Shown: in pieces, positions 13,228 to 40,575 of the stretch
Position numbering within the stretch: the first letter of the stretch is position 1
Layout of the letters: the number at the start of each line of letters is the position of its first letter
NCBI RefSeq assembly: GCF_000725885.1
Contig: NZ_JODR01000007.1
Span: 1 to 64,000 of the forward strand
Direction: 5' to 3'
Origin: Streptomyces albus subsp. albus
GTDB taxonomy: Bacteria > Actinomycetota > Actinomycetes > Streptomycetales > Streptomycetaceae
Length of the DNA: 64,000 nt
Program-made: the position numbers and the translations under genes
Notes under the pieces: generated by a model
The model's database searches: none
The model's input: only the letters and a program-made list of their open reading frames with translations
What the model was told of the DNA's origin: nothing

Positions 13228-13286
13228 CGTCGAGCTCCCCCGCGGACTCGGCCGTTGTGCTGGACAGGAGTGACGCGCGTCAAAAA

Positions 13287-13308
13287 GGTAGTACGAAATC
13301 GTACTACC
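13287..13308. promoter_or_regulatory. perfect 22-bp palindromic operator candidate
   Basis: Arms GGTAGTACGA (13287-13296) and TCGTACTACC (13299-13308) are exact reverse complements around AA. The site lies 60 bases upstream of the response regulator start (minus strand) and 100 bases upstream of the P450 start (plus strand), in an AT-richer island. Position and symmetry suggest binding of a dimeric regulator that governs both genes. Confidence 0.75.
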
Positions 13309-13407
13309 GAACGTGAGGATACCTCCGCCCGTCCGTCCCCACAGCGACTCGACCACGAATCAAGGCTCTGGCACAACAGTGCGTGCATGTCTGGAGAGTT
13401 GTCCGCC

Positions 13408-14737: not shown

Positions 14738-15115
14738 TCACAGCCTGGAGCCGTCCGCGGCCCGCGGCCCGTAACCCCAGGCCCGGTCCACCGCGATGTG
14801 CGCCAGCCATCCGCAGGCGGCCACCGCGGGCCGGCGGCTGCGCACCGCGCGGGCGGCCCCCAGGAGCACCAGCGGCACGCCCGGCGAATGCAGCACGTTG
14901 TAGGGGCGTACCGCGTAGCGCGGCAGCGGGTCGAACGTGGGCGCGGACGCGGCACCGTACAGCAGGGCCACGTCCGGCAGCACCGCGCAGGTCCACAGCA
15001 GCCGGTCGCGCGGGCCGCCCAGCCGGACGCCCGCGTACAGGGCGGCCAGGCCCGCTGTCGCGCTCAGCGTTCTGCCCCACGGGGTGCGGTAGGTCCACGC
15101 CGTGCGGCGTCTCAT
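14738..15115 (-). CDS. DUF4260-like small membrane protein
   Basis: A 125-residue hydrophobic protein with three to four membrane segments and the pattern LPDVALLYG, YNVLHSPGVPLVLLG and CGWLAHIAVDRAWGYG, which I recognise as DUF4260-like. The family has no known biochemical role. ATG 15115 overlaps the hydrolase stop (ATGA), making this the last gene of the minus-strand tetronate operon; co-translation suggests it serves the pathway, perhaps in product handling at the membrane, but that is a guess. Confidence 0.7.
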   Translation of the reverse strand: MRRRTAWTYRTPWGRTLSATAGLAALYAGVRLGGPRDRLLWTCAVLPDVALLYGAASAPTFDPLPRYAVRPYNVLHSPGVPLVLLGAARAVRSRRPAVAACGWLAHIAVDRAWGYGPRAADGSRL

Positions 15116-16242
15116 ATCCGTACCCGTCCCTTCCGTGCGCCGCCCAGCCCGGCGGCCGTCCGCAGCAGGGTGCGCCGCGCCGGGTGCACCTCCAGCGTCT
15201 CCAGCGCGGCGGCGAGCAGCAGGGGGCGGACCCGGGCCAGTCGGGCGGGTGTGCCGTGCTCGTCGTCGGCGAAGAGCACCTGGCGGGGCGCCCGGGCGTC
15301 GCGCAGCAGCACCGCCGCGTCGCTGAGCGGGACGATGCGGTCCCGCAGGGCCGCGACGTAGGTGACGGGCAGCCGCTCCAGTGCGGCCAGCTCCGCGTCG
15401 TCCAGCGCCCAGTTCCCCAGCGCCGCCGCCAGACCGTCCTCGGGGTGCCCGGTCAGCCGGGCGAGGGTGCGCAGGGTCGTGGCCGGGAGCCCGGGCCGCC
15501 CCAGCGAGTCGGTGAAGAAGTGGCGGACGGGGGCGCCGACGGTGGCCACACCCGCGATGCGGGGGTCGCCGAGGGCGGCGCGCAACGCCAGGTGGCCGCC
15601 GAAACTGAGCGCGACGGCGCTGGTGCGGCGCACGTCGGCGCGGCCGGCCAGCGCGTCCAGCAGGGCGGTCACCATGGCCGGGGCGGCGGCGTCGTAGGGC
15701 AGGGTGTTCTCGCCGACGCCGGGCAGTTCCGTGACGGCGACGGCGGTGCCCAGCGCCTCGGCCCGCGCCAGCAGCGGCGCCCACTGTTCCTTGACGGACA
15801 CGATGCCGCCGCACACCAGGATCAGCGGACGCGGCCGGCGCGTGGACAGGCCCGCCGCCCATGCGGCGAACCGGCCGTCCCGGTGGGCGACCTCCACCCG
15901 GTCGATGCCGGGGCGGGTGGTGCGCCACCGGTCGAAGGAGCGCACCGCCAGCCGCTGCGCCCGCTCGCGTGCGGGCCCGTCCACGTACGGGAAGCGGGCC
16001 AGCGCGTAGTGGCGGGCCGCCGCCAGGTGCCGGCCCCGGGCGGCCAGTCGGTCGCCGGCCCGGCTCCAGACGGCAGGCCAGGAGTCGGGCCCGTCCCCGT
16101 GCGCCGTGCCGATCCGCGCCAGCAGGGCGCGGCAGCGGGCTGCCGGGATGCCCTGGGCGCGGGCGTGCAGCGGGGCCAACTCGCGCAGTTCGGCGAGGGA
16201 CGGCGGACGGCGGGCGACCGCAGGCTGGGCGGTGGAGGTCAT
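15112..16242 (-). CDS. FrsA-like alpha/beta hydrolase, AbyA5/Agg5-type eliminase candidate
   Basis: A 376-residue alpha/beta-hydrolase of the FrsA/DUF1100-like type, with a helical N-terminal cap (1-110), the strand PLILVCGGIVSVKEQW, the nucleophile elbow ALSFGGHLAL near residue 215, an Asp in VAALRDRIVPL and a His in DDEHGTPARL. In tetronate clusters an enzyme of this fold (AbyA5, Agg5) removes acetate from the acetylated 5-hydroxymethyl tetronate to leave an exocyclic double bond. The matching acetyltransferase, FkbH, ACP and FabH-like genes are in the same operon, which is the main reason for the call. ATG 16242 overlaps the monooxygenase stop. A general esterase is the alternative. Confidence 0.75.
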   Translation of the reverse strand: MTSTAQPAVARRPPSLAELRELAPLHARAQGIPAARCRALLARIGTAHGDGPDSWPAVWSRAGDRLAARGRHLAAARHYALARFPYVDGPARERAQRLAVRSFDRWRTTRPGIDRVEVAHRDGRFAAWAAGLSTRRPRPLILVCGGIVSVKEQWAPLLARAEALGTAVAVTELPGVGENTLPYDAAAPAMVTALLDALAGRADVRRTSAVALSFGGHLALRAALGDPRIAGVATVGAPVRHFFTDSLGRPGLPATTLRTLARLTGHPEDGLAAALGNWALDDAELAALERLPVTYVAALRDRIVPLSDAAVLLRDARAPRQVLFADDEHGTPARLARVRPLLLAAALETLEVHPARRTLLRTAAGLGGARKGRVRI

Positions 16243-17507
16243 ACCGGGCTCGCTTCCGCGGCCGGGCGGTGTCGGTCACCGGGCCGCTGTCCGGGGAAGT
16301 AGGCGGGGGCCAGTACGCGGCGGCGCAGCGCCGGGCTGGCGCCGACCGTCCGGTACAGGGCCCGGCGCAGCACGGCCGCGCCGGGCCCGGCCAGGGTGAA
16401 CAGCCGCTCCTGGCGCAGTTGCAGGGCGCGGGAGCGGGCCACGGCCGGCTCCCGCAGCCGCTGGTAGGTCTCGCAGGCGGCGCCGAGTGCCCGGCCCGCC
16501 CCGCGCCCCTCCGCCAGGGCCCGGTCGAGCAACGGGGCCAGTTCGGCCGCGTCGGCCAGCGCGTGGTTGACGCCCTGGCCCAGGACCGGCGAGAGGGTGT
16601 GCGCGGCGTCGCCGAGGAGGACGACGCCAGGCGCCGACCAGCGGGGCACCTCGGTGGTGAAGATGTCCAGCAGTGCCGTGTCCGACCAGCCGCGCAGCCC
16701 CTCCCGGGCGGCGTCGGCCACCTCCGGCGCGAGCGCGGCCAGCCGCCGGCGCAGCGCGTCGAGACCCTGCGCCCGCAGCTGCCGCAGTCCGCCCTTGGGG
16801 ACGTTGAGGCCGACACGGACCCTGCCGTCGGCGCAGGGCAGGAAGAGGGCGTGGCTGCCGCCCGCGATCCGCACCCGGTAGGCGCGGCGGTCCCAGTCGG
16901 CGGGGTGCGGCAGCTTCAGCCACACCACGTCCCGCTCCAGCGGGGTGCGCCGGGCCCGTTCGCCGAGCCCGGACAGGCGGCGCACCGTGCTGTGCCGCCC
17001 GTCGGCGCCGACGGTCAGCGCGGCCCGTACCCGCACGGTGCCGTGCGGGGTGACCGCCCGGACCCCGGTGACGGCCGGGCCCGCACCGAGCAGCGCCACG
17101 GCGGTGGCGGGCGCCAGCACGGTGCACGGCCCTGGCTGGCGGGCCGTCAGTTCGGCCAGTGCGGACAGCAGGGCCGGCTGCGGCAGCTCCACGGGGTGCC
17201 GGTAGCGGTAGGGGAAGTCGGCGAACCGTACGTCGAGGACACGGCGCCCGGCGTCCTCGATCTCCAGCCGGTCCACCCGGTGTGCGGCCCCGCGTACCTG
17301 CTCCCAGGCGCCGAGCCCGTCCAGCAGCCGCACGCCGTCCGGTGAGACGGACTCGCCGCGGAACACCGGGCCCGCGCCGCGCCCCGGGTCGCGTCGCTCC
17401 AGCAGCACCACGCTGCGGCCCAGCCGGGCCAGCGCCAGTGCCAGGGCCCGGCCGCCGGGTCCGCCGCCGACCACGCACACCTCGGCCTCCACCGTCTCAT
17501 CCGGCAC
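16239..17507 (-). CDS. FAD-dependent monooxygenase / oxidoreductase
   Basis: A 422-residue flavoprotein of the p-hydroxybenzoate-hydroxylase/geranylgeranyl-reductase superfamily. The FAD dinucleotide motif [19 protein letters not shown] is near residue 12, the DG-type motif [17 protein letters not shown] near 165 and the second FAD motif [20 protein letters not shown] near 290. GTG 17507 is used because GGAGG sits just upstream; a far longer open frame continues into the Gly/Pro-coding tail of the PPTase gene and is rejected. The start overlaps the PPTase end by 11 bases. It is probably a tailoring oxygenase or reductase acting on the tetronate acyl chain; substrate unknown. Confidence 0.88.
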
Positions 17508-18834
17508 GGCCGCCTCCCTCCCCCTGTTCCCGCACCGCCCACGCCCCGCCCGCGCCGACGCCGCCCGCGCCGGGGGCGTCGCTTCCGCCGGTCTCTGCGG
17601 AGCCGCCGGTCGCGCCCAGGCCGCCGGGGGTTCCACGGGGGCCGTCGGCCCGGCCGGTTCCAGCAGCCCCGGCAGCCCTGTCGGTCCTGTGGCTCCCATG
17701 AGAACTGCCGGCCCCGGCGCTCCCATGGGTCCCGTTCGCTCCGTGGGGGCCGTCGATCCGTTGCGGAGCGTCGGCCTCGCGGGCTGCATCCGCCCCGGCG
17801 GCCCCAGCGGTACTGCCGGCCCCGCGGGCATCGTCGGTCCGGCGGGCGTCGCCGGTCCGGTCGGTCCGGGTGGCCCCGGCGGTCCGGGTGGCCCCATGAC
17901 GGCCGTCGGCCGCATGGGGGCCGTCGGTCTCGTGGTGGTCGTCGGTCTCGTGGTGGTCGTCGGTCTCGTGGTGGTCGTCGGTCTCGTGGTGGTCGTCGGC
18001 CAGGGCGGCGATGAGGCCCGCGTCCAGCATGGTGGCCGCCGCGGTGTCCGCGGTGTCGCCGAAGCCCGCGTCGAAGAGGGCGACGCTCACGGTGTAGGCC
18101 CGGTCGACCAGGCAGGTGTGGAACGTCCACTCCTCCCCCGTGCCCGGGGAACCGTCCGGCCGCAGCACCTGGACGTCGCGGTCCTGCGGGCCGAACCCGA
18201 ACTCCGTGAAGCGGAACCGCATGCCCTGCCCGATGGCCTTGCTGTACGCCTCCTTCAGCGTCCACAGCCGCACCAGCGCCGCGTTCCGCCGTTCCTCGGC
18301 GATCTGCGCGAGGGTGCGCCGCTCGTACGGGGTGCACACCTGGTTCTCGGTGCCCAGCCCCAGCATGGGCCGGTCCTTGGCCTCCGCGTCCACCCCGATC
18401 CAGCCGCGCCGGGTGAGGCCGACCAGCAGCAGGTTCTCGGTGTGGCTGAGGCTGATGTCGATCTGGTCGAGCCCGCGCAGATAGGGGCGGCCACCGGGCT
18501 TGTAGGCCAGCTCCACCGTCTCGGGGGCGGCCTCGATGACGGCGCAGGCGACATGTTTGAGCAGCAGCCGTGACGCCACGAAACGGGACCTGACCTGCGG
18601 GTGCGTCATCGCCCGGAAGCGGGCGTGGTCGCGGCCCAGCAGCGGGCGCAGCCCGGGGTCGTCCAGGTCCGCGGGCAGCCAGTCGTCCAGCCGCGCGTGC
18701 ACGACGACGCTGCCGTGGCTCTCGACCGCCTCACGGACCTGATCCCACGGTCCCTTCGGCCCCCTCATCCGCACCGGGCGGGCGAAGGGCTCCGCTTGCC
18801 GCTCGTCCGTCGCGGGGCCCAGGAAGATCGCCAT
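17497..18834 (-). CDS. Sfp-type 4'-phosphopantetheinyl transferase with repetitive C-terminal tail
   Basis: A 445-residue protein. Residues 1 to about 260 are a Sfp-type phosphopantetheinyl transferase that converts apo to holo carrier proteins: [20 protein letters not shown], Mg-binding GVDAE at 147-151 and [12 protein letters not shown] at 191-202. It would serve the three or more carrier proteins of this operon. The last 180 residues are not part of any PPTase: four DDHHET hexapeptides at 280-303 followed by a Gly/Ala/Thr/Asp-rich tail. Typical family length is 220-260. ATG 18834 has a strong GGAGGG ribosome site although this overlaps the acyltransferase gene by 104 bases. The tail might bind metal, or be a neutral expansion. 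Confidence 0.9.
17923..17994. repeat. four perfect 18-bp tandem repeats inside the PPTase gene
   Basis: The unit GTCGGTCTCGTGGTGGTC is repeated exactly at 17923, 17941, 17959 and 17977. On the coding strand it gives DDHHET hexapeptides, a His/Asp-rich block. Confidence 0.95.
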
Positions 18835-19597
18835 GCCAGCCCTCCAGGCGTGTCACCACGCCGTCGAGTACGTCCGCTGCCGCTGCTCCGTCGAGCACCC
18901 TGTGGTCGAAGGTCAGTGAGAGGCGCAGTACGGGGGCGGCCCGCACCCGGCCGCCCCGCACGAGGGGCCGCTGGACGACCCGTGCCGCGCAGAAGGTGAC
19001 GGCGGCACCGCCGTACGCGTGGAAGACGTCCACCGCGCGGTGGCCCAGCGAACTGACCGCGAAGGTGCCCATCCGCCGCTCCCGCGCGGCCGGCCCCCGC
19101 ATCCCCAGGCGGAACGCCAGTTCGCCGAGCGGGGGCGGCAGCACGCACAGCGCCCGCACCGCACGGGCTCCCGGCAACTCGCCCGGCGCGGCCCGCCGGT
19201 AGCGGTCCACCAGGTCCTGCACACCGTCCAGGGGCAGGCTCTCCAGCCCCGGCAGTACGACGGTGCGCACCGTGCGGGTGCCGTCCTCGGCGGGGGTGTC
19301 GAGCGCCAGTTTCGCGGACACCCCGGGCCCCGGCAGGGGGACGGTGCGCGGGCGCAGCAGCCCGGTGGCCACGGCGCGGGCCTCGGGGTGCGCGGCCACC
19401 ACCCGGGCCGCCGCGTGCAGCAGGTAGGTCACGTACGCGTAGCGGCGGCCCCGGGCGCGGGCGGCGGCGCGGTGCGCCGCCACCCGGGTCATGTCCACCT
19501 CGGCGCCCAGGTGCACGGGGGCGGCGGCAGCGGCCCAGCGCAGGAAGTAGCGGGTGGGCCGGCGGGCCGCCGAACCCGTCGGCGCGGGCCGGTTCAC
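18731..19597 (-). CDS. E2-type acyltransferase (2-oxoacid dehydrogenase catalytic domain), AbyA4/Agg4-type
   Basis: A 288-residue stand-alone catalytic domain of the dihydrolipoamide acyltransferase (E2) fold, without lipoyl or E1-binding domains. The active-site motif SLTFDHRVLDGAAAADVLDG is near residue 235. In spirotetronate and agglomerin pathways such a protein (AbyA4, Agg4) acetylates the hydroxymethyl group of the new tetronate ring to prepare it for elimination. Here it is coupled to an ACP and FkbH gene, exactly that context. GTG 19597 overlaps the ACP stop (GTGA). Its 3' end overlaps the PPTase gene by 104 bases. Substrate assignment is by synteny. Confidence 0.85.
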   Translation of the reverse strand: MNRPAPTGSAARRPTRYFLRWAAAAAPVHLGAEVDMTRVAAHRAAARARGRRYAYVTYLLHAAARVVAAHPEARAVATGLLRPRTVPLPGPGVSAKLALDTPAEDGTRTVRTVVLPGLESLPLDGVQDLVDRYRRAAPGELPGARAVRALCVLPPPLGELAFRLGMRGPAARERRMGTFAVSSLGHRAVDVFHAYGGAAVTFCAARVVQRPLVRGGRVRAAPVLRLSLTFDHRVLDGAAAADVLDGVVTRLEGWHGDLPGPRDGRAASGALRPPGADEGAEGTVGSGP

Positions 19598-19821
19598 GGG
19601 TGCACCGCCACGGCCCAGATCTCGCGCAGGGTACGGGCCTCAAGCATCCGGTCGACGGGGACCCGGCGGCCCAGCGCGGTCTCCAGCAGGGCGACCAGCC
19701 GCAGCAGGTGGACCGAGTCCCAGCCGTCGAGCTGTGCCAGCTCGACGGCGGCGTCCGCGGGCCGCAGCGCCGTACCCAGTTCGGTGTTGGCCAGCTCGAT
19801 CAGTTCCTCGACGGTGCGCAT
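19594..19821 (-). CDS. glyceryl acyl carrier protein (AbyA3/Agg3-type)
   Basis: A 75-residue acyl carrier protein with the phosphopantetheine Ser36 in LDGWDSVHLLRLV. In tetronate biosynthesis a small ACP of this kind holds the glyceryl unit that FkbH makes from 1,3-bisphosphoglycerate. It starts at ATG 19821, inside the end of the FkbH gene (22-base overlap), and ends in the acyltransferase start. The close coupling with FkbH supports the glyceryl-carrier role; the protein alone would be called only an ACP. Confidence 0.9.
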   Translation of the reverse strand: MRTVEELIELANTELGTALRPADAAVELAQLDGWDSVHLLRLVALLETALGRRVPVDRMLEARTLREIWAVAVHP

Positions 19822-21740
19822 GCGCTCACCTCCGTCTCGCCGTCCCGGTGCGGCAGCCGCAGGCGCAGCTCCACGTGTCCGGGGAGGTCACCGATGTGGC
19901 CGAGGGGGTGCGTGTAGCCGGTGGCGCCACCGCCGGCCTCCGGCGCGGTGCGGGGCCGGAAACCGTGGGTCTCCAGCAGCCCGCGCAGGGCCGCGTTGGC
20001 GCGGGTGGGGCGCCAGCAGGTGTGCACGGCGGTGTGCCCGGTGCCGCGTGCGGCCCGCAGCAGCCCGCCGAGTACGGCCTCCTCGACGCCGCGGCCCAGC
20101 ACCCGGCAGCTGAGCAGCAGGGCGTCCAGGTGCAATGCGCCCTCCCCGGTGCGGGCCAGCGCCGCTCCGGCGACGCCGTCGTCACCGAACCGGTCGGCCA
20201 CCCGGACGGCGAGCACCAGTCCGCCGGGCGCGGCGGCGTACCGGCGTACCTCTTCGGTGCTCAGCCGGGCCCCGGTCAGGTTGAACCGGTTGGTGCGCAG
20301 GCTCAGTTGGGAGACCCGGGCCGTCTCGTGGTCCTGGGCGGGGCCCACCTCCACCCGCACGCCCAGTCCGGCCAGGAACGCGTGGTGGTCCACGGCCTTG
20401 GTCCGCAGCCGGTCGCGGGCGGCGCGTTCGGCGTAGCGGGCGGGCCGCCGCCGGTCCTCGTCGGTGAGGTCGGGGGTGTCGAACCAGCCGTCGGCCAGCA
20501 GCCGTTCGGGGTGCAGCGCGGGCTCGCCGTCCAGCGGTAGGACGGCCGCACCGGGGACGCCCGCCGCGACGCTCTCCTGCTCGAAGCGCAGGTCGTCGGC
20601 GAAGACGACGGACTCCGGCGCGATGCCCAGCCGGGCGGCGATGGTGCGCACGCCCTCCGCCTTGGAGCCCCAGTCGGCGACGACGGTCTGGAAGTCGCCG
20701 GCGCCCAGCGGGAACTCCGGGTGGCAGGCCAGGGCACGGGCCACCGGGCCGGGGTCGTTCTTGCTGCACACCGCGAGCAGGACCCCTTGGGACGCGAGCT
20801 GTTTGACGGTGCGCTGGAAGGCACCGAAGGCGGCGCCGCGCAGGCTGCCCGCCGCACTGACCCCCCGGGGCCCGTCCTCGGCGAGCACCCCGTCCCACAG
20901 GGTGCCGTCCAGGTCGAGGACGAGGCACTTCTTGGCGGCGCCGCGCAGCCCGCGGACGAGGTGGGCGGCCTCGCGGGCGTAGCCGGCCAGCAGCGGGCCG
21001 GCGCAGTGCGCGTCGGCGTAGGCGCCCAGGCGGGGGTCGTCGGCGCGGGCCCCGGCGCTGGTGACCGGTTCCAGGTCGAGGACGGCGAGCCCGGCCGAGG
21101 GGCGGGCCAGGAACAGCAGGTCGGCGGTGAACTGCCGCCACAGGCCGCCCAGTTCGGCGCGGTGCGCGTGCGAGGTGAGCTGGTGGGTGTGGCGGCGCAG
21201 CAGCGGCACGGTGTTCAGCACGAGGACGGCCCCGGCGGGGGCGTGCGCGGCGTGCGCCTCGGCGAGCTGGGACAGCAGCCGCAGTTGCCGTTCGGCGGCG
21301 ACGCTCACGTCGAGGGGCTGCCACGGTACGGGTACGGCGTCCCACACGGTCCACGGGTCGAGGAGGCAGAGGGTGACCTCGGGGCGGTGCGCGTACAGCG
21401 CGGAGTGCGGGTCGGACAGGTCGCCGACGTAGGTGCCGGAGCCGGACAGGTGGAAGCGGGGCAGCAGTCCGTGCCGGGCCAGTTCGGCGGCCAGTGGGGG
21501 CACCGCCTCGGTGACGGTGCCGCGCCCGGTCACCGCGATCCGCACGGTGGGGGTGCCGGGGTGGTGGCGCAGCACTTCGTCGGGGTCGAGGCCGGCCAGC
21601 AGTCTGCCGGCCGCGGCGAGGTCGTCGGCGCCGGCCCGGGCCAGCAGCCGCGGCAGCTCGGGGTGGGCGGCGGCCGTGCCGCCCCGTTCGTGCAGGGCCC
21701 GCAGCAGGTCGGCCGGGGATTCCGGGCGGTGCTCAGCCAT
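19800..21740 (-). CDS. FkbH-like HAD-IIIC glyceryl-S-ACP synthase (AbyA2/Agg2-type)
   Basis: A 646-residue FkbH-family enzyme. The HAD phosphatase motif CLVLDLDGTLWDGVLAEDG is near residue 275, VCSKNDPG near 320 and VFADDLRFEQE near 370; the C-terminal third is a GNAT-like acyl/transfer domain (LSLRTNRFNLTG onward). The family dephosphorylates 1,3-bisphosphoglycerate and transfers the glyceryl group to an ACP. It is flanked by the ACP (downstream) and the FabH-like synthase (upstream), as in abyssomicin, RK-682 and agglomerin loci. ATG 21740 overlaps the previous stop by eight bases. The N-terminal 200 residues make this a full-length member. Confidence 0.92.
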   Translation of the reverse strand: MAEHRPESPADLLRALHERGGTAAAHPELPRLLARAGADDLAAAGRLLAGLDPDEVLRHHPGTPTVRIAVTGRGTVTEAVPPLAAELARHGLLPRFHLSGSGTYVGDLSDPHSALYAHRPEVTLCLLDPWTVWDAVPVPWQPLDVSVAAERQLRLLSQLAEAHAAHAPAGAVLVLNTVPLLRRHTHQLTSHAHRAELGGLWRQFTADLLFLARPSAGLAVLDLEPVTSAGARADDPRLGAYADAHCAGPLLAGYAREAAHLVRGLRGAAKKCLVLDLDGTLWDGVLAEDGPRGVSAAGSLRGAAFGAFQRTVKQLASQGVLLAVCSKNDPGPVARALACHPEFPLGAGDFQTVVADWGSKAEGVRTIAARLGIAPESVVFADDLRFEQESVAAGVPGAAVLPLDGEPALHPERLLADGWFDTPDLTDEDRRRPARYAERAARDRLRTKAVDHHAFLAGLGVRVEVGPAQDHETARVSQLSLRTNRFNLTGARLSTEEVRRYAAAPGGLVLAVRVADRFGDDGVAGAALARTGEGALHLDALLLSCRVLGRGVEEAVLGGLLRAARGTGHTAVHTCWRPTRANAALRGLLETHGFRPRTAPEAGGGATGYTHPLGHIGDLPGHVELRLRLPHRDGETEVSACAPSRN

Positions 21741-22782: not shown

Positions 22783-25700
22783 CACACCACCGCCGGGGTG
22801 AGGAGGCCGCGCAGATAGCCGGCCAGGGAGCCGATGCTGACGAGGCTGGAGAGCATCTCCGGCAGCGAGAGTTCACCCACTTCGGGGAACCGGGCCTCCA
22901 GCCGGTGCTTGAGTTCCATCAGCATCACGGAGTCGAAGCCCAGATCGTCGTAGAAGCGCAGTTCCTCGTCGAGTTCGCCGGGGGCCGTGTCGAGGATGTC
23001 GGCGACGACCTCCCGCACCCCGGCGCCGACCAGGGCGTCGAGCCCGGCGCCCGCCGCTTGCGGCGCCGGTCCCGCTCCCCGTCCGGTCTCCGGGGCGGAC
23101 TCCGGCTGCCGGTGCTCGGGCTGTGCGGCCGGCTGCGTGGACGGCTGGGCGGACGGCTGCGTGGACGGCTGTGCGGGCCCGTCCGGCGGCCGGCACCAGG
23201 AGCGCCAGCGGGTGGCGAACAGGTGCGGCGTCATCCGCACGGTGCGCCGGTCGGCCGGCGCGTAGAGGGCGTCCCAGTCGAGGTCCAGCCCGTCCTGGTG
23301 GAGGCGGGCGGCCAGCCCCGCCAGGTCCGCGGGCCCCGCGTCGGCGCCCCGGCACACGGGCAGGGCCGGGATGCGGCGGGCCGCGGGGATGCGCCGCAGC
23401 AGCCGGGTGAGCACGGGTTTGGGACCGATCTCCACCAGGTGCGTGGGGGCTTCGGCGCACAGCGAGCCGACGGCCTCCTCGAACCGTACGGTCGCCGGGA
23501 TCTGCTCCCGCCAGTACGCGGCGTCGAGCGGGACGCCCTCGGGCAGCCGGCCGCCGCGCACGGTGGAGTGGAACGGTACCCGCGGCCGGGCCGCCCCGAC
23601 GGTGCCGGCCGCGTGGGTGAAGGCGTCCAGCACCGGCTCCATCAGCGGGGAGTGGAAGGCGTGCGAGACCGTCAGCCGGGTGCAGCCGACGCCCTCGTCC
23701 TCCAGGTGCCCGCGGATCCGCTCCAGCGCGGCCAGTTCGCCCGACAGCACGGTGGCGCCGGGCCCGTTGAGTGCGGCGACGGCGCACCGCGGCTCCCCGG
23801 CCACCAGCTCGCCGACTTGCGGTGCCGACGCCCGCACGGCGAGCATGCCGCCGCCCTCGGGCAGCCGCTCCATCAGGGCGCCGCGCACCGCGACGAGCCG
23901 GGCCGCGTCCGGCAGCCGCAGTGCCCCGGCGCACACGGCGGCGGCGAACTCGCCGATGCTGTGCCCGAGCACGGCCACCGGCCGCACTCCCAGGCCGCCG
24001 AGCGTGGCGGCCAGCGCGTACTCGACGGCGAACAGGGCGGGCTGGGTCAGCCCGGTGCGGTGCACGTCGCCGCCGTCCAGGATGAGCCGGTGCACCGGCT
24101 GCCCGAGCCAGGGCAGCAGCGCCTCGGACGCCTCGCGCAGATGGCGGCGGTAGAGCGGGGAGCCCGCGTAGAGCGCTGCGGTCATCCCCGGGTACTGGGC
24201 GCCCTGGCCGGTGAAGACGAAGGCCACGGCGGGCCTCGGCCCGCCAGCGGCCGGGTCGAGCGGTGCCTCGGCGGCCGTCAGCAGCTCGTCCGCCACCTGC
24301 CCGGCCGAGCCCGCCACCGCGGCGAACCGGTAGGGCCGAGCGGACCGCACCCGGTTGCTGGTGCGGCACAGCGCGGCCAGATCGTCCTCGGGCACGGCGC
24401 GGACCGCCGCCGCCTGGGCCCGCAGGTTCTCGCGCAGGCTGTCGGGGGTGTCGGCGGAGACGGTGAAGACGCCGGCCGCCGTGCCGCCGCCGTCCCGCGG
24501 GGGCCCGGCCGGGCGCGGCGGCGGGCCGAGTACGAGGTGCGCGTTGGTGCCGCCCATGCCGAAGCTGGAGACGCCCACCCGGCAGCCGGGCCCTTCCGCG
24601 GCCAGGTCCAGCGGTGCCGTCACGCGTTCCATCCCGCGCCGGGCCAGCCCCAGTTGCGGATTCTCCGGGCCGTCCACGGGCCCGGCCGGGACGGTGCCGT
24701 GGTGCAGTGCCAGTACGGCCTTGATCAGCCCGGCGACACCGGCCGCGCCCTCGGTGTGGCCGACGGCGGCCTTGGCGGAGCCGAGCGCGAGCGGAGTGGT
24801 GCGGGGTCCGCGACGGGCACCGAGCGCGTCGTCGAGGGCCAGCACCTCGATGAGGTCGCCCAGCGCGGTGCCGGTGCCATGCGCCTCGACGTAGCGCACC
24901 TGCCCGGGTGCGGCGCCGGCCCGCTCGAGCGCCGCGGTGACGACCTCGCGCTGTGCCGCGCGGTGCGGGGCCATGATGCCGTTGCTGCGGCCGTCCTGGC
25001 CCACCGCGCTGCCGTGCACGACGGCGTGCACGAGGTCGCCGTCACGCACCGCGTCCGCCAGGCGGCGCAGGACGACGACGCCGACGCCCTCGCCGCGGCC
25101 GATGCCGCCGGCCCCGGCGGCGAACGGCCGGCACCGCCCGTCGGCGGCGGCCAGCCCGGCGAGCTGGTAGATCCGGTCCAGTGCGGTGCCCAGGACGAGG
25201 TTGACCCCGCCGGCCAGCGCCAGGTCGCACTCGCCGGCCAGCAGCGCCGTGCACGCCAGGTGGACGGCGACCAGGGACGAGGAGCAGGCGGTGTCCACGG
25301 TCAGGCTGGGCCCGCGCAGATCGAGCTGGTAGGCGAGCCGGTTGGCCAGCATGGCGCGTCCGCTACCGGTGCCGGTGCGCGGCGTGATGCCTTCCGGGTC
25401 GGCCAGCGCCAGCCGCGTCCAGTCGTCCGACATGGCGCCCACGTAGCTGCCGGTGCGGCTGCCGGCCAGCTCGGACGGCGACCGCCCGCTGTCCTCGACG
25501 GCCCGCCACGCGCACTGGAGCAGCAGCCGCTGCTGGGGGTCCATGGCGGCGGCCTCGGCGGTGGGGATGCCGAAGAAGCCGGGGTCGAAGGCGTCCGCGT
25601 CGGCGAGGAAGGCGCCCGGGTGGCCGGGGCGGAACCGGGAGGGCGCAGGGTCACCGGCCGGGTGCGCCGTACCGTTCAGCAGCCGCCAGTAGGCCGCCGG

Positions 25701-25799
25701 GTCGGGCGCCCCGGGGAACGCGCAGTCGAGCCCGACGACGGCGACGGCGCGCGGGCCCGCGCCGTCGGGGCCCGTGGCCTGCTCCTGTGGCACGGTCAC
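22782..25799 (-). CDS. single-module type I polyketide synthase, KS-AT-ACP
   Basis: A 1005-residue protein. The ketosynthase (about 15-430) has the active-site [12 protein letters not shown] and both His motifs ([23 protein letters not shown]). The acyltransferase (about 510-830) has [21 protein letters not shown] and HAFHSPLM, a malonyl-CoA signature. A carrier domain near 925-1000 has [11 protein letters not shown]. There is no reductase, dehydratase or docking region, so one extension would leave a beta-keto thioester, the right partner for the tetronate-forming synthase. GTG 25799 overlaps the upstream ACP stop (GTGA). Whether the module works once or iteratively cannot be read from sequence. 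Confidence 0.92.
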
Positions 25800-26158
25800 A
25801 CCTCCGCCGGTCCGTGGGCGGCGCCGGGGCCGCGCCGGGCGTACTCGTCAGCCAGGTGGCGGGCCAGCGCCTCGACGCTGGGGTGGTCCCAGGCGACGGT
25901 GGGCTCCAGATAGAGGGCGAACTCCTCCTCGATGTCGCCGTAGAGGCTGAGCGCGGCCACCGAGTCGAGCCCGTACTCGGCGAACGGGGTCCGCGGGTCG
26001 ATGCTGCCGGCGGGCCGCTGGAGGAACGCGGCCAGCCGTGCGGTCAGCCAGTCGGCGAAGGCGCCCGGCCCCCACCCGGCGCCGGGCCCGTCCGGTGCGG
26101 CCGGCGGCCTGCCCGCGGACGGCTCGGGGGGCTGCGCCCCGGTCTGTTGCGCCACCAT
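25796..26158 (-). CDS. acyl carrier protein for the fatty-acyl starter
   Basis: A 120-residue ACP with a Pro/Gly-rich N-terminal 30 residues and the phosphopantetheine Ser66 in YGLDSVAALSLYGDIEEEF. This variant motif is typical of carrier proteins partnered with fatty acyl-AMP ligases, as in lipopeptide loading systems. ATG 26158 is preceded by GAGGAG; the gap to the upstream dehydrogenase gene is ten bases. It likely accepts the activated fatty acid from the ligase at 29806-31599 and presents it to the two acyl dehydrogenases. Confidence 0.88.
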   Translation of the reverse strand: MVAQQTGAQPPEPSAGRPPAAPDGPGAGWGPGAFADWLTARLAAFLQRPAGSIDPRTPFAEYGLDSVAALSLYGDIEEEFALYLEPTVAWDHPSVEALARHLADEYARRGPGAAHGPAEV

Positions 26159-26168
26159 GTCAAGCTCC

Positions 26169-27980
26169 TCAGCCGGCGAGCGGGGTGTCGTACAGGTCGT
26201 AGCTGCGGCCCTCGTGGAAGCGGGCCAGCACCTCGTCGAGCAGGTGCTCCTCCCAGCCGTCGGGCAGCTTCGGCAGCGGGCGGCCCAGCCGTCTGGCGAG
26301 GCGGGTGAGCGCGAGCGCGGGCCAAACGGGCGAGGCGAGGAACCCCGACGGGCCGCCCGCGCCCGGCGCGTCGCCCTCCTGGCCGCACCACACGCCCAGG
26401 CAGGCGGCGGCTGCCAGCAGCAGCGCGTACCGGTCGGCGATGGCGTAGGCGCGGGGGTTGGCCAGCACGGTGCGGTCCCTGGCGGGCATGGCGGCGCACT
26501 CGTCGCGCAGGCTGCGCAGTTCCGCCGCCATCTCGCCGGCCAGCGCGCCCAGCGCCTCCGCGTACTCCCCCGCCCGTGCGGCGTGCCGCCCCGCCAGTGC
26601 GTCGGCGGCGCCCGCCAGCGAACAGGCCAGCCCGTCGCCGGTGGCCACCAGGCCCAGCAGCGAGGGGTCCAGGGGCGGCAGCGGGTCCCGGACGCGGAAG
26701 AGGGCTTCGGGCGCGGGCTGCCCGCCGTCCCACGCGGTGCGGGCCAGCCGGGGCAGCTGCGGGATGATCGTGGCCTGGCAGGCGGCGGTGCCCGCGTGGC
26801 CCAGGCTGATCATCGGCAGGTCCCGTACGTGTTTCTGGAAGGCGCCGTACTCGCCGCCGCGCACGTAGAAGTTGGCGCCCAGCACGATGGACAGGTCGTA
26901 GGTCGTCTCCGTCAGCAGCTTGGGCAGCAGGTACTTGACGGCGGCGGCGTACACGCTGGTCTGGTCGGGCAGCAGGTGGACGGCGCGGGTGGCTGCCAGG
27001 GCCAGGCAGTCGGACACCAGCAGGTCCACGAAGGCGCCCACCAGCGTGGCGCGGGCGTGCGGGATGTCCAGCACCGACCGGTTGTACAGCCGCCGGTCCA
27101 GCGCGAAGCCGACCGCGGTGCGCAGCGCGGTGTCGCCGCCGCCCAGGATCATCGAGGGGACGACGCTGCGGGTGATCTGGAAGGAGCGCAGCGCCAGTTC
27201 GACGCCGTCGCCCGGTCCGCCGACGAGCGCGTCGGCCCCGACGGGGCAGCCGCTGAACTCCACGCCCGCGTTCTGGCAGCCGCGCACCCCGACGGTGGCG
27301 TAGCGCGGCAGGTACCGCAGGTGGCGGCGCCCGCCGTCGGGGAGCCGGTCCTTCTCCACGAGCAGCACCGAGTGGCTGCGGCTGCCCGGCTCCTGCGAGG
27401 TGCGGCTGAAGAGCACCAGCGCCTCGGCCCGCACCACGTTGTTGATGACCTGTTTCGCGCCGTCCAGCACGAACGAGCCGTCGGCCAGCGGGGTGGCGCG
27501 GAACTCGTTGCGCACGAAGTCGTTGCCGTGCGCCAGCTCGTGGTAGGCGATGGCCAGCCGGCCGCCGCCCAGCAGCAGATCGGCGACCCGGCGCCGCTGC
27601 TCGGGCGTACCGGCCGCCCATACGGCGACGGCGGCGAGGAAGGAGGTGACGCCGTAGCCCAGGCCCAGGCTGGCGTCCCGCCGGAAGACGGTGCGCAGCA
27701 CCCGGCCCAGGGTGTCGACGCGCTCCAGCCTGCCGCCCAGCGCGCGGGGCACGAACTCGGCGTTGAGGCCGAAGCCGGTCAGCATCTCCTCGGCCTCGGC
27801 GAGCAGTTCGCCGCGCTCGTCGGCGGCGAGCAGCGCGGCCAGTCCGAGCGGGTTGTCCGGGTCCGAGGGGTCGCCGAAGCGGCGCTCCAGGTCGGCGATC
27901 CGCCGCTGGACGGCCCGTTCCTCCGCCTCCGGCCCGGCAGCGCCGGTGGCCGCCGTGTCCTGTCCGGTACGGGTCAGCAC
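26169..27980 (-). CDS. acyl-CoA dehydrogenase-like acyl-ACP desaturating flavoenzyme (first)
   Basis: A 603-residue member of the acyl-CoA dehydrogenase superfamily, longer than the usual 380-400 residues because of a helical C-terminal extension. The middle contains the FAD/substrate-binding pattern (LAIAYHELAHGNDFVRNEF, FVLDGAKQVINN, RSFQITRSVVPSMILGG). In the ramoplanin and enduracidin loci two dehydrogenases of this size act with a fatty acyl-AMP ligase and ACP to introduce conjugated double bonds into the lipid. GTG 27980, seven bases inside the previous gene, has GGAGGG upstream; the usual catalytic Glu could not be placed with certainty. Substrate is inferred from context. Confidence 0.82.
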   Translation of the reverse strand: MLTRTGQDTAATGAAGPEAEERAVQRRIADLERRFGDPSDPDNPLGLAALLAADERGELLAEAEEMLTGFGLNAEFVPRALGGRLERVDTLGRVLRTVFRRDASLGLGYGVTSFLAAVAVWAAGTPEQRRRVADLLLGGGRLAIAYHELAHGNDFVRNEFRATPLADGSFVLDGAKQVINNVVRAEALVLFSRTSQEPGSRSHSVLLVEKDRLPDGGRRHLRYLPRYATVGVRGCQNAGVEFSGCPVGADALVGGPGDGVELALRSFQITRSVVPSMILGGGDTALRTAVGFALDRRLYNRSVLDIPHARATLVGAFVDLLVSDCLALAATRAVHLLPDQTSVYAAAVKYLLPKLLTETTYDLSIVLGANFYVRGGEYGAFQKHVRDLPMISLGHAGTAACQATIIPQLPRLARTAWDGGQPAPEALFRVRDPLPPLDPSLLGLVATGDGLACSLAGAADALAGRHAARAGEYAEALGALAGEMAAELRSLRDECAAMPARDRTVLANPRAYAIADRYALLLAAAACLGVWCGQEGDAPGAGGPSGFLASPVWPALALTRLARRLGRPLPKLPDGWEEHLLDEVLARFHEGRSYDLYDTPLAG

Positions 27981-29806
27981 GGCGGTCCCTCCGCGGTGCG
28001 GCGCGGGTACAGGGAGAACAGCTCCCCCGCCGCGTACTGTGCGGCCATCCGCTCCAGCAGTCGCTCGTACAACGGTTCCCGCATCTCTTCCTCCACCCCC
28101 CAGGCCCGGGGCAGCGCCCCCGTGCTCCCGGGCACAGATTCCTCCAGGCGGCTCGAAAGCCGGTCCAGTACGGCCTCGAGCCACAGTGGGGACGGCTGAC
28201 CGCCCCCGTCGCCGTACCGCCACAGGCCCACGGCGCAGGCGGCGGCGAAGCAGGCGCTGTAGCCGCGCGCCAGCTCGAAGGCGTCCGCCGGGGGCCCGGC
28301 CGGGGCGGGGCGCACGGCCGCCATCCGGGTGTGCAGTGCGCGGCAGGCGCCCGTCAGGGTGCGGGCGCTGCGGGCGGCACCGGCCAGCCGGGGGTCGCAG
28401 GACGCGGCCCGGGCGAGGGCGTCCGCGCCGGCCGGGAGCGATCCCATCAGGGCGCTGCCGTCGCGGGCGAACAGCCGCAGCCGTGCGGGCGACAGCGCGG
28501 GCAGCGGGCCGGCCGGACCGAAGGTGGCCGCCTGCCAGTCGCTCCCGTCCGGCTCCGCTTCCCGTCCGGGCCGGGCGGGAAGCGGCCCGGCGGCGAACGT
28601 GCGTGCCAGGGTGCGGAACTGGGCGGTGAGCGCGTACAGGTTCACCATCGTGTTGCCGTCGAAGATGCCCACGATGCGGTGGTCGCGCTCCAGTTTCTGG
28701 AACCGGCCGTGCGCGTAGTGGTCGCTCAGGTACGCGCGGGCCCCCAGTACCCCGCGCAGCCTCTCCAGCAGCCGGTCCACGAGGGTGGGCACCAGGTATT
28801 TGGCGACGGCGGAGGTGACGCTCAGCTCGCCCGGCAGGGTGTGGATGCTGCGCGCGGCGACGGTGCTGAGCGCCTCGGCGGCGAGCAGGTCGGCGTAGCA
28901 CTCGGCGAGGGTGCGGCGCACCAGCGGCAGCTCGGTCATCCGCCGCCCGTACAGCCGCCGTTCCCGGGCGAAGCCCAGTGTGAGCCGGAGCCCGTGATCG
29001 GCGGCGCCCAGGGAGAGTGCCGTGCACAGCGACCGGGTGATCTGGAGCGCCTTGAGCACGGTCTCGGGGCCCTCGCCCTCCCGTCCGACCAGGCAGTCGG
29101 CTCCCACGGGTGCCCCGTCGAAGGCGATGCCGCTGATGTCGGCGCCGCGGATGCCGAGGGTGGGCACCTTGGGCAGGGTGCGGTAGCTGCCCGGCGGCAG
29201 CCGGTCCTTGTCGACCAGCAGCAGGCTGAAGCCGCGGGGCCCGCCGCCGGGGTCGGTGCGGGCCAGCAGGCACACGAGGCGGCCCCGGGTCGCGTTGTTG
29301 ATGAGCCACTTCTCGCCGGTGACGCGGTAGCCGCCGGCGAGCGGTTCGGCCACCACCTCGCCGGCCATCAGGTCGCTGCCGTGGGTGCGTTCGGTCAGTC
29401 CGAGACAGACCGGTTCGCCCGCCCGTACGATTTCCGCCAGCCGGCCGGCGCCCCGCTCGTCCCCGGCCACCCAGATGCACACGGCGCCCAGGAACGTCTT
29501 GCCGTGGCCGACGGCCACGGTCAGATCGCGGCGGGCCAGGGTGCGGACGATCTCCAGCAGCTGCGGCATCTCGGTGAGCGCGCCCCCGTACTCGGCGGGC
29601 ACGTAGTAGTGCGGGAGCCCGAGCCGGTCGAGTGCGGCGCACGCGTCGGCGGGGAAGGCTTCGGCGGCGTCCTGGCGGGCGGCTGCCGCGTACCCCAGTG
29701 GTCCGGCCGGGCCGGTGGGGTCGCCCAGCCGGGCGTCCAGCTCCTCCCCCAGCGTCCGGCCGGGCGGCGCGCCCCCTTCGCCGGGCCGCTGTCGTGCCGT
29801 CGTCAT
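27974..29806 (-). CDS. acyl-CoA dehydrogenase-like acyl-ACP desaturating flavoenzyme (second)
   Basis: A 610-residue acyl-CoA dehydrogenase superfamily protein. It has the N-terminal helical domain (LPHYYVPAEYGG), the beta-barrel motif VCLGLTERTHGSDLMAGEVV, YRVTGEKWLINNA and the C-terminal arginine segment GFARERRLYGRRM, GRFQKLERDHRIVGIFDGNT, then an extra domain. It is a distant paralogue of the neighbouring enzyme; pairs like this occur in ramoplanin/enduracidin clusters for dienoyl lipid formation. ATG 29806 overlaps the ligase stop by one base. The pair suggests two sequential desaturations of the ACP-bound starter acid. Confidence 0.85.
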   Translation of the reverse strand: MTTARQRPGEGGAPPGRTLGEELDARLGDPTGPAGPLGYAAAARQDAAEAFPADACAALDRLGLPHYYVPAEYGGALTEMPQLLEIVRTLARRDLTVAVGHGKTFLGAVCIWVAGDERGAGRLAEIVRAGEPVCLGLTERTHGSDLMAGEVVAEPLAGGYRVTGEKWLINNATRGRLVCLLARTDPGGGPRGFSLLLVDKDRLPPGSYRTLPKVPTLGIRGADISGIAFDGAPVGADCLVGREGEGPETVLKALQITRSLCTALSLGAADHGLRLTLGFARERRLYGRRMTELPLVRRTLAECYADLLAAEALSTVAARSIHTLPGELSVTSAVAKYLVPTLVDRLLERLRGVLGARAYLSDHYAHGRFQKLERDHRIVGIFDGNTMVNLYALTAQFRTLARTFAAGPLPARPGREAEPDGSDWQAATFGPAGPLPALSPARLRLFARDGSALMGSLPAGADALARAASCDPRLAGAARSARTLTGACRALHTRMAAVRPAPAGPPADAFELARGYSACFAAACAVGLWRYGDGGGQPSPLWLEAVLDRLSSRLEESVPGSTGALPRAWGVEEEMREPLYERLLERMAAQYAAGELFSLYPRRTAEGPPC

Positions 29807-31599
29807 CAGCGTTCCCCGGCGCCGCGGCCGGCGGGCCGCGCGTCCGTCCCGCCGGCGACCAGTCTGCGCACCTCGGGGGCGACGACCTCGTGCAGCGGGC
29901 GGATCTGCCCCGCCAGGAACATCTGCCGCATGGCGCCGCGCTGGAGCTTGCCGCTGGTGGTGCGGCGGACGGTACCGGGCCGCACCAGCAGCACGTTCTC
30001 CGCCGCCACCTCGAACTCCTCGGCCACGCGGCTTTGCACCGCCGCCGCCAGGGAGGCCAGCTCCGTCTCGAAGTCGCGACCGGTGCGCACCTCCTGGACG
30101 ACGACGACATGGTCGCGGTCCGACTCCACGGAGAACGCCGCACTCGACCCGAACAGCGCGCTGACCCGCTGCACGCTGCGCTCGATGTCCTGCGGGTACA
30201 GATTCCGCCCGGCGACGATCATCAGGTCCTTCAGCCGCCCGGTGACGAACAGTTCGCCGCCGTCGAGCGCCCCCAGGTCCCCGGTGCGCAGGAAGCCGCC
30301 GCTGCCGTCGGCCGTCACCGCGCGGAACGCCTGCCCGTTCTCCAGCGGCCGGTTCCAGTAGCCGTGCCCGACGCTGTCGCCGCGCACCCACACCTCGCCG
30401 ACCCGCCCGTCCGGCAGTTGTGCGTGGCTCTCGGGGTCCACGATCCGCACCTCGCAGCCGCGCGGGATGCCACAGCTGACCAGCCGGCGCGTCGGCCTGC
30501 CCGGCCGGGGCCCGCGCAGCCCGTGGTGCTCCAGCTCCCCGGCGTCCACGGTGCGCTCCCGCGCGGTGACGCCGGGCACCCCGCCGCAGACCAGCAAGGT
30601 GGCCTCGGCCAGCCCGTAGCAGGGGTAGAAGGCGGAGCGGCGGAACCCGGCGGGTGCGAACCGTTCGGCGAACGCGTCCAGCGTCTCGGCCCGCACCGGT
30701 TCGGCGCCGTTGACCGCCGTCTCCCAGCGTGCGAGGTCCAGCCCGGCCAGCTGCTCGTCGGTGACGCGGCGCACGCACAGGTCGTAGCCGAGGTTGGGTC
30801 CGCCGCCGGTGGTGATGCCGTACTCGTCGATCATGCGCAGCCAGTTGACCGGGCGTCTGACGAAGCCGACCGGTGACATCAGCACCCCTCTGCCGCCCAG
30901 CCACAGCGGGTGCAGCAGATGCCCGGCCAGGCCCATGTCGTGGTGGAACGGCAGCCAGCCGCCGACCACCGAGTCGGGGCCGGTGCGCATCGCCTGCCGT
31001 ACGGCCTCCTGGTTGGCGAGCATGTTGCGGTGCGTGACCATCACGCCCTTGGGTTCGCTGACGGACCCCGAGGTGTACTGGAGGTAGGCCACGTCGTCGG
31101 GGAAGAGCCCCGGCTCCCGCCAGTCGTCGGGGGCGCTCGGCGTGGCACGGTCGGTGGCCAGGCACACCACGTCCGCGTGGCCGGTGGTGGCCAGCAGCTG
31201 GGAGACGGCGGAGGCGTTGTCCGAGTCCGTCATCAGATAACTGACGGCGGCGTCCCGCACGATGGCCGCGACGCGCTCCACGTTCTGCCGGGCACCGCCG
31301 GGCGGCGGCGCCGGCACGGCCACGGCGCCGGCGAACAGGCAGCCGAGGAAGCTGGTGACGAACTGCTCGCCGTCGGAGTGCAGGATCAGCACCCGCTGCC
31401 CGTGGCAGCCCCGCTCCTGGAGCCAGGCGGCCAGCCGCAGGGCCCGCCTGCCCAGTTCGCCGTAGCTGAGGGGGTCCGCCTCCAGCACCCCCTCGCGGCC
31501 CGCCCGGACGAACTGGTACGCGGTCGCATCGGGCCGCTCGTGGATTCTGCACAGCGCGAGTTCCGTGAAATTCCCGGGCACAGCCATCATCGCCCCCAT
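29806..31599 (-). CDS. fatty acyl-AMP ligase
   Basis: A 597-residue adenylate-forming enzyme of the FAAL class, which activates a fatty acid as its AMP ester and loads it on an ACP rather than CoA. Motifs: YLQYTSGSVSEPKGVMVTHR (P-loop-like A3), GWLPFHHDMGLAGHLLHP, YGLAEATLLV, FLRTGDLGAL and the late TTSGKLQRGAMR with the catalytic Lys. It is the first gene of the long minus-strand operon, consistent with supplying the starter unit. The start is one of several near Met codons (31599, 31590 or 31587); 31599 is retained. Chain length and saturation of the acid are not predictable from sequence. Confidence 0.92.
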   Translation of the reverse strand: MGAMMAVPGNFTELALCRIHERPDATAYQFVRAGREGVLEADPLSYGELGRRALRLAAWLQERGCHGQRVLILHSDGEQFVTSFLGCLFAGAVAVPAPPPGGARQNVERVAAIVRDAAVSYLMTDSDNASAVSQLLATTGHADVVCLATDRATPSAPDDWREPGLFPDDVAYLQYTSGSVSEPKGVMVTHRNMLANQEAVRQAMRTGPDSVVGGWLPFHHDMGLAGHLLHPLWLGGRGVLMSPVGFVRRPVNWLRMIDEYGITTGGGPNLGYDLCVRRVTDEQLAGLDLARWETAVNGAEPVRAETLDAFAERFAPAGFRRSAFYPCYGLAEATLLVCGGVPGVTARERTVDAGELEHHGLRGPRPGRPTRRLVSCGIPRGCEVRIVDPESHAQLPDGRVGEVWVRGDSVGHGYWNRPLENGQAFRAVTADGSGGFLRTGDLGALDGGELFVTGRLKDLMIVAGRNLYPQDIERSVQRVSALFGSSAAFSVESDRDHVVVVQEVRTGRDFETELASLAAAVQSRVAEEFEVAAENVLLVRPGTVRRTTSGKLQRGAMRQMFLAGQIRPLHEVVAPEVRRLVAGGTDARPAGRGAGER

Positions 31600-40308: not shown

Positions 40309-40495
40309 GGCGGGTCTCCCATCGGGGGTCGGGGGTGCCCCGGGCGTGCCGTGCCGGGGGCGGGAGGGGTGAGGCGCTTGGGCCGGTGCGAAGGCGTCGG
40401 CGCGTGAGCTGTACGAGAAACGTCGCTGTGTCAGGAGCGCCGCCGTGTCAGGGGCGTCGCTCCGCCGAGTGGTTCCGGCGCCGGAGAGGACCGGA

Positions 40496-40560
40496 GAGCC
40501 GCCCGGCCCAGCGGCCGGGCGGCTCGGACAGCTCCGCGCCGGCCGGCCGCGAGGCCGGCC
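40496..40560 (-). terminator. tandem hairpins behind the lanthipeptide precursor gene (attenuator)
   Basis: GAGCCGCCCGGCC (40496-40508) pairs perfectly with GGCCGGGCGGCTC (40513-40525) around CAGC, and GGCCGGCC (40541-40548) pairs with GGCCGGCC (40553-40560) around GCGA. Both follow the precursor stop (40576) in the direction of transcription and precede lanC, so they probably cause partial termination and keep precursor transcripts abundant. Confidence 0.75.
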
Positions 40561-40575
40561 CCGGGAGCACACGGA

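Follow-up and report, generated by a model that had tools for sequence, protein, structure and literature searches.

The window, a stretch of 64,000 nt from Streptomyces albus subsp. albus (contig NZ_JODR01000007.1, positions 1 to 64,000), contains at 14738-31599 an operon that probably directs the synthesis of a small acyl tetronate. In the predicted pathway a fatty acid is desaturated, extended by one malonyl unit, converted to an acyl-5-methylidene tetronate and then oxidised. To this explanation as a whole, which includes translational coupling of the operon, we assign a probability of about 0.7. The product is best read as a 3-(2-enoyl or 2,4-dienoyl)-5-methylidene tetronate that would undergo oxidation afterwards. 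The enzymes were identified by their sequences, and every reaction in this organism is predicted from these identities.

The interval holds 13 genes, all on the minus strand. Given our choice of start codons, 11 of 12 gene junctions overlap by 1-104 nt and the sole gap (10 nt) lies between ACAD2 and ACPa, which fits a single operon; 14738-31599 is a real operon. The original prediction, made from the letters of the window alone, spoke of 14 overlapping minus-strand genes: the strand was correct, the count was one too high. Coordinates and enzyme families agree with Pfam, NCBIfam and the translations, and the predicted interval covers the operon but misses a probable member of the cluster, the cytochrome P450 gene beside it. 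The genes, in the order of the operon, are:

29806-31599, minus strand: FAAL, fatty acyl-AMP ligase, 597 aa, first gene of the operon
27974-29806, minus strand: ACAD1, long acyl-CoA dehydrogenase (ACAD)-like protein, 610 aa (Acyl-CoA_dh domains, tree, residue counts, model)
26169-27980, minus strand: ACAD2, second ACAD-like protein, 603 aa (Acyl-CoA_dh domains, tree, residue counts, model)
25796-26158, minus strand: ACPa, free-standing acyl carrier protein (ACP) for the fatty acyl chain (PP-binding 3e-15, Pfam)
22782-25799, minus strand: type I polyketide synthase module, ketosynthase-acyltransferase-ACP (KS-AT-ACP), malonyl type by its HAFH motif (Pfam KS, AT, PP-binding)
21733-22785, minus strand: KSIII, FabH-like tetronate ring-forming enzyme of AbyA1/RkD type (PDB 5by7)
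19800-21740, minus strand: FkbH-type glyceryl-ACP synthase, AbyA2/RkE type (TIGR01686)
19594-19821, minus strand: ACPb, discrete ACP for the glyceryl unit, AbyA3 type, 75 aa (PP-binding 5e-06)
18731-19597, minus strand: E2-type acyltransferase, AbyA4/Agg4 type by family and place (2-oxoacid_dh 2.6e-14; HxxxDG)
17497-18834, minus strand: Sfp/HetI-type phosphopantetheinyl transferase (PPTase) with a low-complexity C-terminal tail (ACPS 4.3e-14; HetI model below cut-off)
16239-17507, minus strand: FAD-dependent monooxygenase-like protein (FAD_binding_3 2.2e-29)
15112-16242, minus strand: AbyA5/Agg5-type alpha/beta hydrolase, acetate-eliminating (phmmer to AbyA5, 5no5)
14738-15115, minus strand: DUF4260 protein, last gene (PF14079 5.8e-09)
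13255-14637, plus strand: cytochrome P450, convergent, outside the operon (p450 1.7e-38)

The tetronate cassette and the fatty acyl module

By sequence, the components of an AbyA/Agg-type cassette are present: KSIII, FkbH with a discrete ACP, an E2-type acyltransferase and an AbyA5-type hydrolase. The hydrolase, which the scheme of the original prediction required to cluster with AbyA5, matched that protein (PDB 5no5) in phmmer with an E-value of 4.6e-83 over 347 residues, and the Ser, Asp and His segments are conserved. Among the PDB matches of KSIII one stands out, 5by7 (E 3.3e-94), an entry named only 3-oxoacyl-ACP synthase III. KSIII carries the motif SGCSG, scores below the cut-offs of the FabH families in NCBIfam and shares the segments PPQLSG and GNNGN with 5by7; FabH has PHQAN at the place of PPQLSG. 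FkbH, with the motif LDLDGT, reaches 244.8 bits against TIGR01686 in NCBIfam (cut-off 146.65). The E2-type protein contains DHRVLDG, in agreement with HxxxDG, and is assigned to the AbyA4/Agg4 type by its family, its place and this motif. ACPb adjoins FkbH or E2 in most relatives. The cassette of the original prediction is thus upheld. In the excerpted text of the cited papers, which is what all citations here refer to, abmA4 and abmA5 mutants accumulate compounds whose masses are those expected of hydroxymethyl and acetyl tetronates (PMC5819245), and Agg4 and Agg5 acetylate and then eliminate (PMC4979870).

The first genes of the operon have the arrangement of a lipid initiation module, with FAAL, both ACADs and a free ACP adjacent. 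FAAL has an AMP-binding domain (Pfam, 2.8e-67) and is matched by several fatty-acid--AMP ligase models of NCBIfam, at most at 425 bits and always below their own cut-offs. In the PDB it matches 7r7f (E 9e-141, 572 residues), which is named polyketide synthase, as well as chains that bear the name fatty-acid--AMP ligase. An ACPa match follows the ACAD pair in five of five loci of the non-ribosomal peptide synthetase (NRPS) type as well. No NRPS condensation domain was found downstream of FAAL-ACAD-ACP in the window; the KS-AT-ACP module is located there instead. Its AT contains GHSIGE and HAFH and its KS contains DTACSSS, and Pfam detected no KR, DH or ER domain in it, just as the original prediction of a malonyl-specific module without reduction had it.

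The predicted kinship of the two dehydrogenases with those of lipopeptide clusters was recovered in a tree of 101 ACAD proteins (built by a quick method, with long branches among the outgroup). ACAD1 sequences of tetronate and NRPS clusters form one clade (SH-aLRT 99), and ACAD2 sequences of tetronate, NRPS and FAAL-AT clusters form another (SH-aLRT 100). The 12 other ACADs of the window's genome fall together on one side (99), and two divergent ACADs of locus L209 lie outside both clades. Five loci whose NRPS context was judged by motifs (L191, L204, L205, L206, L208) stand in for the named ramoplanin and enduracidin ACADs in this tree.

Residues at two sites, which we take to be those of the catalytic base and name after MCAD Glu376 and IVD 254 (isovaleryl type), were then counted. 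In the MAFFT alignment the MCAD column is occupied by Asp in all 36 ACAD1 rows, and by His (55) or Ser (2) in the 57 ACAD2 rows. Neither ACAD1 nor ACAD2 has Glu at the isovaleryl-type site; all 12 aligned other ACADs of the genome, used as a control, carry it at one of the two sites. The position of the ACAD2 histidine depends on the alignment by one residue (MAFFT places His in the column, HMMER the neighbouring Ala), and under either alignment the column has no Glu. Tree placement and the absence of the catalytic Glu rule out that these ACADs are beta-oxidation enzymes. The AlphaFold model of ACAD1 (pLDDT 89.6) matches ACADs and VLCAD, and that of ACAD2 (pLDDT 89.1) has the ACAD fold and a VLCAD-like length. 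The second domain of the models is partly matched; the C-terminal part has a VLCAD/ACAD9-like arrangement. ACAD2 has the same length (603 aa) as database protein P0001, and a Streptomyces database protein is 98% identical to ACAD1.

Distribution across Streptomyces

A KSIII search of 295 genomes of the genus (E<=1e-30) gave 56 matches in 49 genomes. Up to 20 kb around 36 of these matches was fetched and read with the window proteins. FAAL, both ACADs, ACPa, the module and KSIII occur together in 19 of the 36 loci, with E2 within the stretch in 16 and the hydrolase in 15; FkbH is often upstream of FAAL or outside the stretch. Another eight loci have one ACAD, ACAD2, together with FkbH, ACPb and PPTase, and no E2 or hydrolase in the stretch. 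Seven of these eight genomes contain neither E2 nor hydrolase at E<=1e-20, and the eighth (G038) has both in a second tetronate cluster. The one-ACAD genomes mostly lack E2 and hydrolase, and therefore the genus holds a natural series, from clusters with no elimination genes to the form seen in the window. FAAL without ACAD in the stretch was found in three loci, L062, L070 and L073. On the contig of L062 (genome G116), however, an ACAD pair is encoded some 20 kb upstream; G049 (L070) gave a single, weaker ACAD match and G217 (L073) gave none. Six loci have no FAAL.

In other Streptomyces the gene set recurs with its order mostly kept, the proteins of the nearest genomes being about 55-90% identical, and the closest full clusters in named genomes belong to this genus. 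This recurrence rules out that unrelated genes came together by chance. The FAD monooxygenase and DUF4260 genes lie on the operon strand in 11 loci (L039-L043, L075-L079, L087), representing 10 genomes since L040 and L076 are the same contig, and DUF4260 is present in all 11 of these window-like loci. Among the named carriers of the window-like form are Streptomyces smyrnaeus, S. qinglanensis, S. iconiensis, S. fildesensis (with FAAL relocated downstream) and sp. AA1529. Either gene also occurs singly: L050 and L082 have a monooxygenase gene on the opposite strand, L084 has one inside the locus, and L046, L051 and L052 have DUF4260 without a monooxygenase.

E2 and the hydrolase were both searched in the same 295 genomes at E<=1e-20, and the results are raw counts with relatedness and linkage unaccounted for. 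The hydrolase was found in 39 genomes, all with KSIII, and E2 in 35, of which 34 have KSIII. Both are present in 33 genomes, the hydrolase only in six and E2 only in two. One of the latter, G069, has a weak E2 match and no KSIII; an E2 match is present in just one of the 246 KSIII-free genomes.

Several related clusters were seen besides these. A frequent Streptomyces cluster consists of FAAL, ACAD2, ACP, a stand-alone AT and PPTase (L192-L198, L202; split in L199 and L203), without KSIII or FkbH. Its AT aligns to about 515-843 of the window module in the four loci checked. In the tetronate-type locus L084 (Streptomyces coacervatus) the ACAD pair groups with lipopeptide ACADs, perhaps through an independent recruitment of the FAAL-ACAD module. 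In Nocardia and Rhodococcus (L085, L086, L088) FAAL, ACP and a 45-46% identical KS-AT module occur with no KSIII in the stretch.

The proposed pathway and its alternatives

FAAL would activate a fatty acid and load it onto ACPa, where ACAD1 and ACAD2 would desaturate the bound chain to the 2-enoyl or 2,4-dienoyl form; number, position and geometry of the double bonds are left free. KS-AT-ACP would add a single malonyl unit and so give a beta-ketoacyl (3-oxo) thioester. FkbH is expected to form glyceryl-ACPb, which KSIII would join to this thioester, closing a 5-hydroxymethyl tetronate. The E2-type enzyme would then acetylate the hydroxymethyl group and the AbyA5-type hydrolase would remove acetate, leaving the 5-methylidene. 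Oxidation of the product may be carried out by the FAD monooxygenase and the neighbouring P450, and the PPTase would arm the carrier proteins.

A number of observations weigh against parts of this scheme. Two ACADs do not force a diene, as the excerpted account of rotihibin indicates, and the usual catalytic Glu is missing from ACAD2. There is no transporter or regulator gene inside the operon, and no known product could be assigned among the literature matches listed. Six genomes have the hydrolase without E2 at the threshold above (G049, G050, which is only 82% complete, G063, G067, G196 and G217, including loci L070 and L073); another acyltransferase may perform the acetylation there. In five loci of four genomes (L039, L040/L076, L075, L077) the E2 gene between ACPb and PPTase is cut to a short scar. 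The scar of L075 (16050-16420) clearly retains the C-terminal end of E2 and that of L039 is further decayed; S. iconiensis (L087) kept the operon E2. The whole-genome search for a replacement covered, of these four, G088 (L039) and G138 (L040), and not S. smyrnaeus or S. qinglanensis; this scope, and the six genomes with hydrolase and no E2, count against a reading in which E2 acts from elsewhere in the genome.

The number of double bonds is the least certain part of the predicted product. A minimum of one double bond, adjacent to the carbonyl, is likely; so is a diene, though it is unproved. The rotihibin precedent and the unusual active site of ACAD2 leave the polyunsaturation of the original prediction in doubt. 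FAAL, two ACADs and ACP are also found in the rotihibin cluster, and the excerpt gives cis-2-decenoic acid as the proposed chain, with forms 2 Da lighter only minor and the second dehydrogenation considered possibly not essential by the authors (PMC8552735). An alternative with an appreciable chance, though below even, is that the pathway is the same and ACAD1 and ACAD2 jointly introduce a single 2-enoyl double bond, perhaps cis; ACAD2 would then serve as an isomerase or partner instead of dehydrogenating a second time. Besides rotihibin, this agrees with the histidine that 55 of the 57 ACAD2 rows carry at the base site or next to it, and with the lack of Glu at either known site. However, ACAD2 is the sole ACAD in the stretch in eight of the 36 loci, so it probably acts alone there, and a review attributes the presence of a single double bond or of two to one or two ACAD genes, respectively (PMC9113097); its excerpt adds that no mechanistic studies of such ACADs were reported. 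A further-reaching idea, tentative and rather unlikely, is that the ACADs of FAAL clusters form their own class of acyl-ACP desaturases, with Asp (ACAD1) or His (ACAD2) in place of Glu as base. The His enzyme would make a double bond beyond C2-C3, or a cis one, on the ACP-bound chain, and with this pair the operon of the window would produce a conjugated dienoyl methylidene tetronate, representing a new class of electrophilic products that occurs across Streptomyces. A dienoyl tetronate could also be the substrate of a [4+2] reaction if the FAD enzyme were a cyclase of the PyrE3/Tsn11 sort and not an oxygenase. FAD monooxygenase-like proteins do act as cyclases in polyether tetronate pathways, according to the excerpt of PMC7489565. 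Yet the best NCBIfam families of the protein are monooxygenases of the PRK06185/UbiH type (all below cut-offs), it matches the flavin monooxygenase 8uiu in the PDB (2.7e-26), and the usual flavin and DG motifs are visible by eye, so that we consider a cyclase very improbable.

The end of the pathway could instead resemble that of RK-682, with the hydroxymethyl tetronate as the true product and E2 and hydrolase not working in this strain. The deletion of the operon E2 in near relatives and the absence of both genes from seven of the eight genomes with a one-ACAD locus point in this direction. However, both genes are intact in the window, with their motifs present, and both searched E2-deleted genomes carry another E2: a homologue of normal length, 50% identical and encoded far away, beside a type II thioesterase-like gene (so labelled from its own sequence and from a 29% match to the thioesterase that Pfam identifies in the window). 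In G128, whose operon is also without E2, FkbH, ACPb and E2 lie together 7 Mb away. Given the rarity of E2 in KSIII-free genomes, tetronate synthesis is the most likely role of the unlinked copies, and an RK-682-like end is quite improbable in comparison with the methylidene product. The operon is less self-contained than originally described, since relatives probably use an unlinked E2 and a conserved P450 lies near it.

Flanking genes and relation to known pathways

The P450 gene at 13255-14637 is probably a cluster member outside the operon. Proteins 62-79% identical to it are encoded near the cluster in 10 of the 11 window-like loci (the copy of G175, locus L043, is about 6 kb off), and it was not seen in L087. 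The start of the FAD monooxygenase gene is predicted to be the GTG at 17507, and the collagen-like upstream part of its open reading frame (ORF) is probably untranslated. Just upstream of this start an 18-bp tandem repeat (5.3 copies, 17904-17999) lies within the low-complexity tail of the PPTase gene (17497-18050). Plus-strand ORFs at 26001-28199 and 28331-30361 and the upstream part of the ORF at 14738-16816 were taken as antisense or out-of-frame reading.

On the other side of the P450 gene, 5480-13356 contains genes for a SARP regulator, a type II thioesterase, a 926-aa YcaO protein and a two-component pair. Their order is kept beside the cluster in four of five relatives with a fetched flank (G088, G138, G285, G218) and was not found in G175. 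They were therefore not counted as parts; possibly they are a second cluster or its regulators. A 709-aa LanC-like protein is encoded at 38443-40572, followed by further large minus-strand ORFs.

RK-682 retains the hydroxymethyl group and has a saturated chain. Its rk system (Streptomyces sp. 88-682), like the pathway predicted for the window, makes an acyl tetronate from a beta-ketoacyl thioester with RkE (FkbH), RkC and RkF (ACPs) and RkD (KSIII), as described in part in PMC4979870 and PMC5819245, and the minimal set is six genes (PMC3625739, excerpt). Against the presumed rk make-up, two ACADs, E2, hydrolase, FAD monooxygenase, DUF4260 and P450 are extra in the window, which differs from an RK-682-type cluster in carrying the elimination genes besides the shared first part. 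L070 has FAAL, ACP, KS-AT-ACP, KSIII, FkbH and ACP in a row with no ACAD between them, and the hydrolase is also present; we suppose that this is the rkA-F order. The RK-682 system may be the same set without ACADs and elimination genes. In S. fildesensis a cluster more than 50% similar to that of RK-682 was reported from antiSMASH (PMC6522549, excerpt). A different strain of the species carries the window-like gene set (L078), and the cluster of the surveyed strain would belong to the window's family.

Agglomerin (agg, Pantoea agglomerans) is, like the proposed product, a 3-acyl-5-methylidene tetronate formed via acetylation and elimination by Agg4 and Agg5 (PMC4979870). Its cluster differs, with seven genes in 8 kb, and was compared by partial description only (PMC11350110). 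All five enzyme types of the spirotetronate AbyA1-A5/AbmA1-A5 cassettes are also found in the window, but the spirotetronate chain comes from a multimodular polyketide synthase and ends in cycloaddition, whereas the window combines a fatty acid with one module. The order FAAL, ACAD, ACAD, ACP is that of rotihibin (PMC8552735). In the lipopeptides (rotihibin, and enduracidin and ramoplanin as cited) the chain passes to an NRPS condensation domain, and in the window it would pass to a KS.

The original statement that no described cluster joins these modules is weakened by the 19 loci that do and by the possible likeness of RK-682. Among the matches listed in literature searches, with most subscription papers outside their scope, no paper describing FAAL, ACADs and the tetronate cassette together was found. 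Each half is known and the gene set is common in genomes, so the combination is a variant of known pathways (RK-682/agglomerin) and not a new kind. In compact form the operon joins the desaturation module of lipopeptides and the tetronate cassette, and it leads one to expect that many Streptomyces build an electrophilic methylidene tetronate from a fatty acid. The natural series of clusters, with no, one or two ACADs and with or without elimination genes, would be useful for asking what role the ACADs play.

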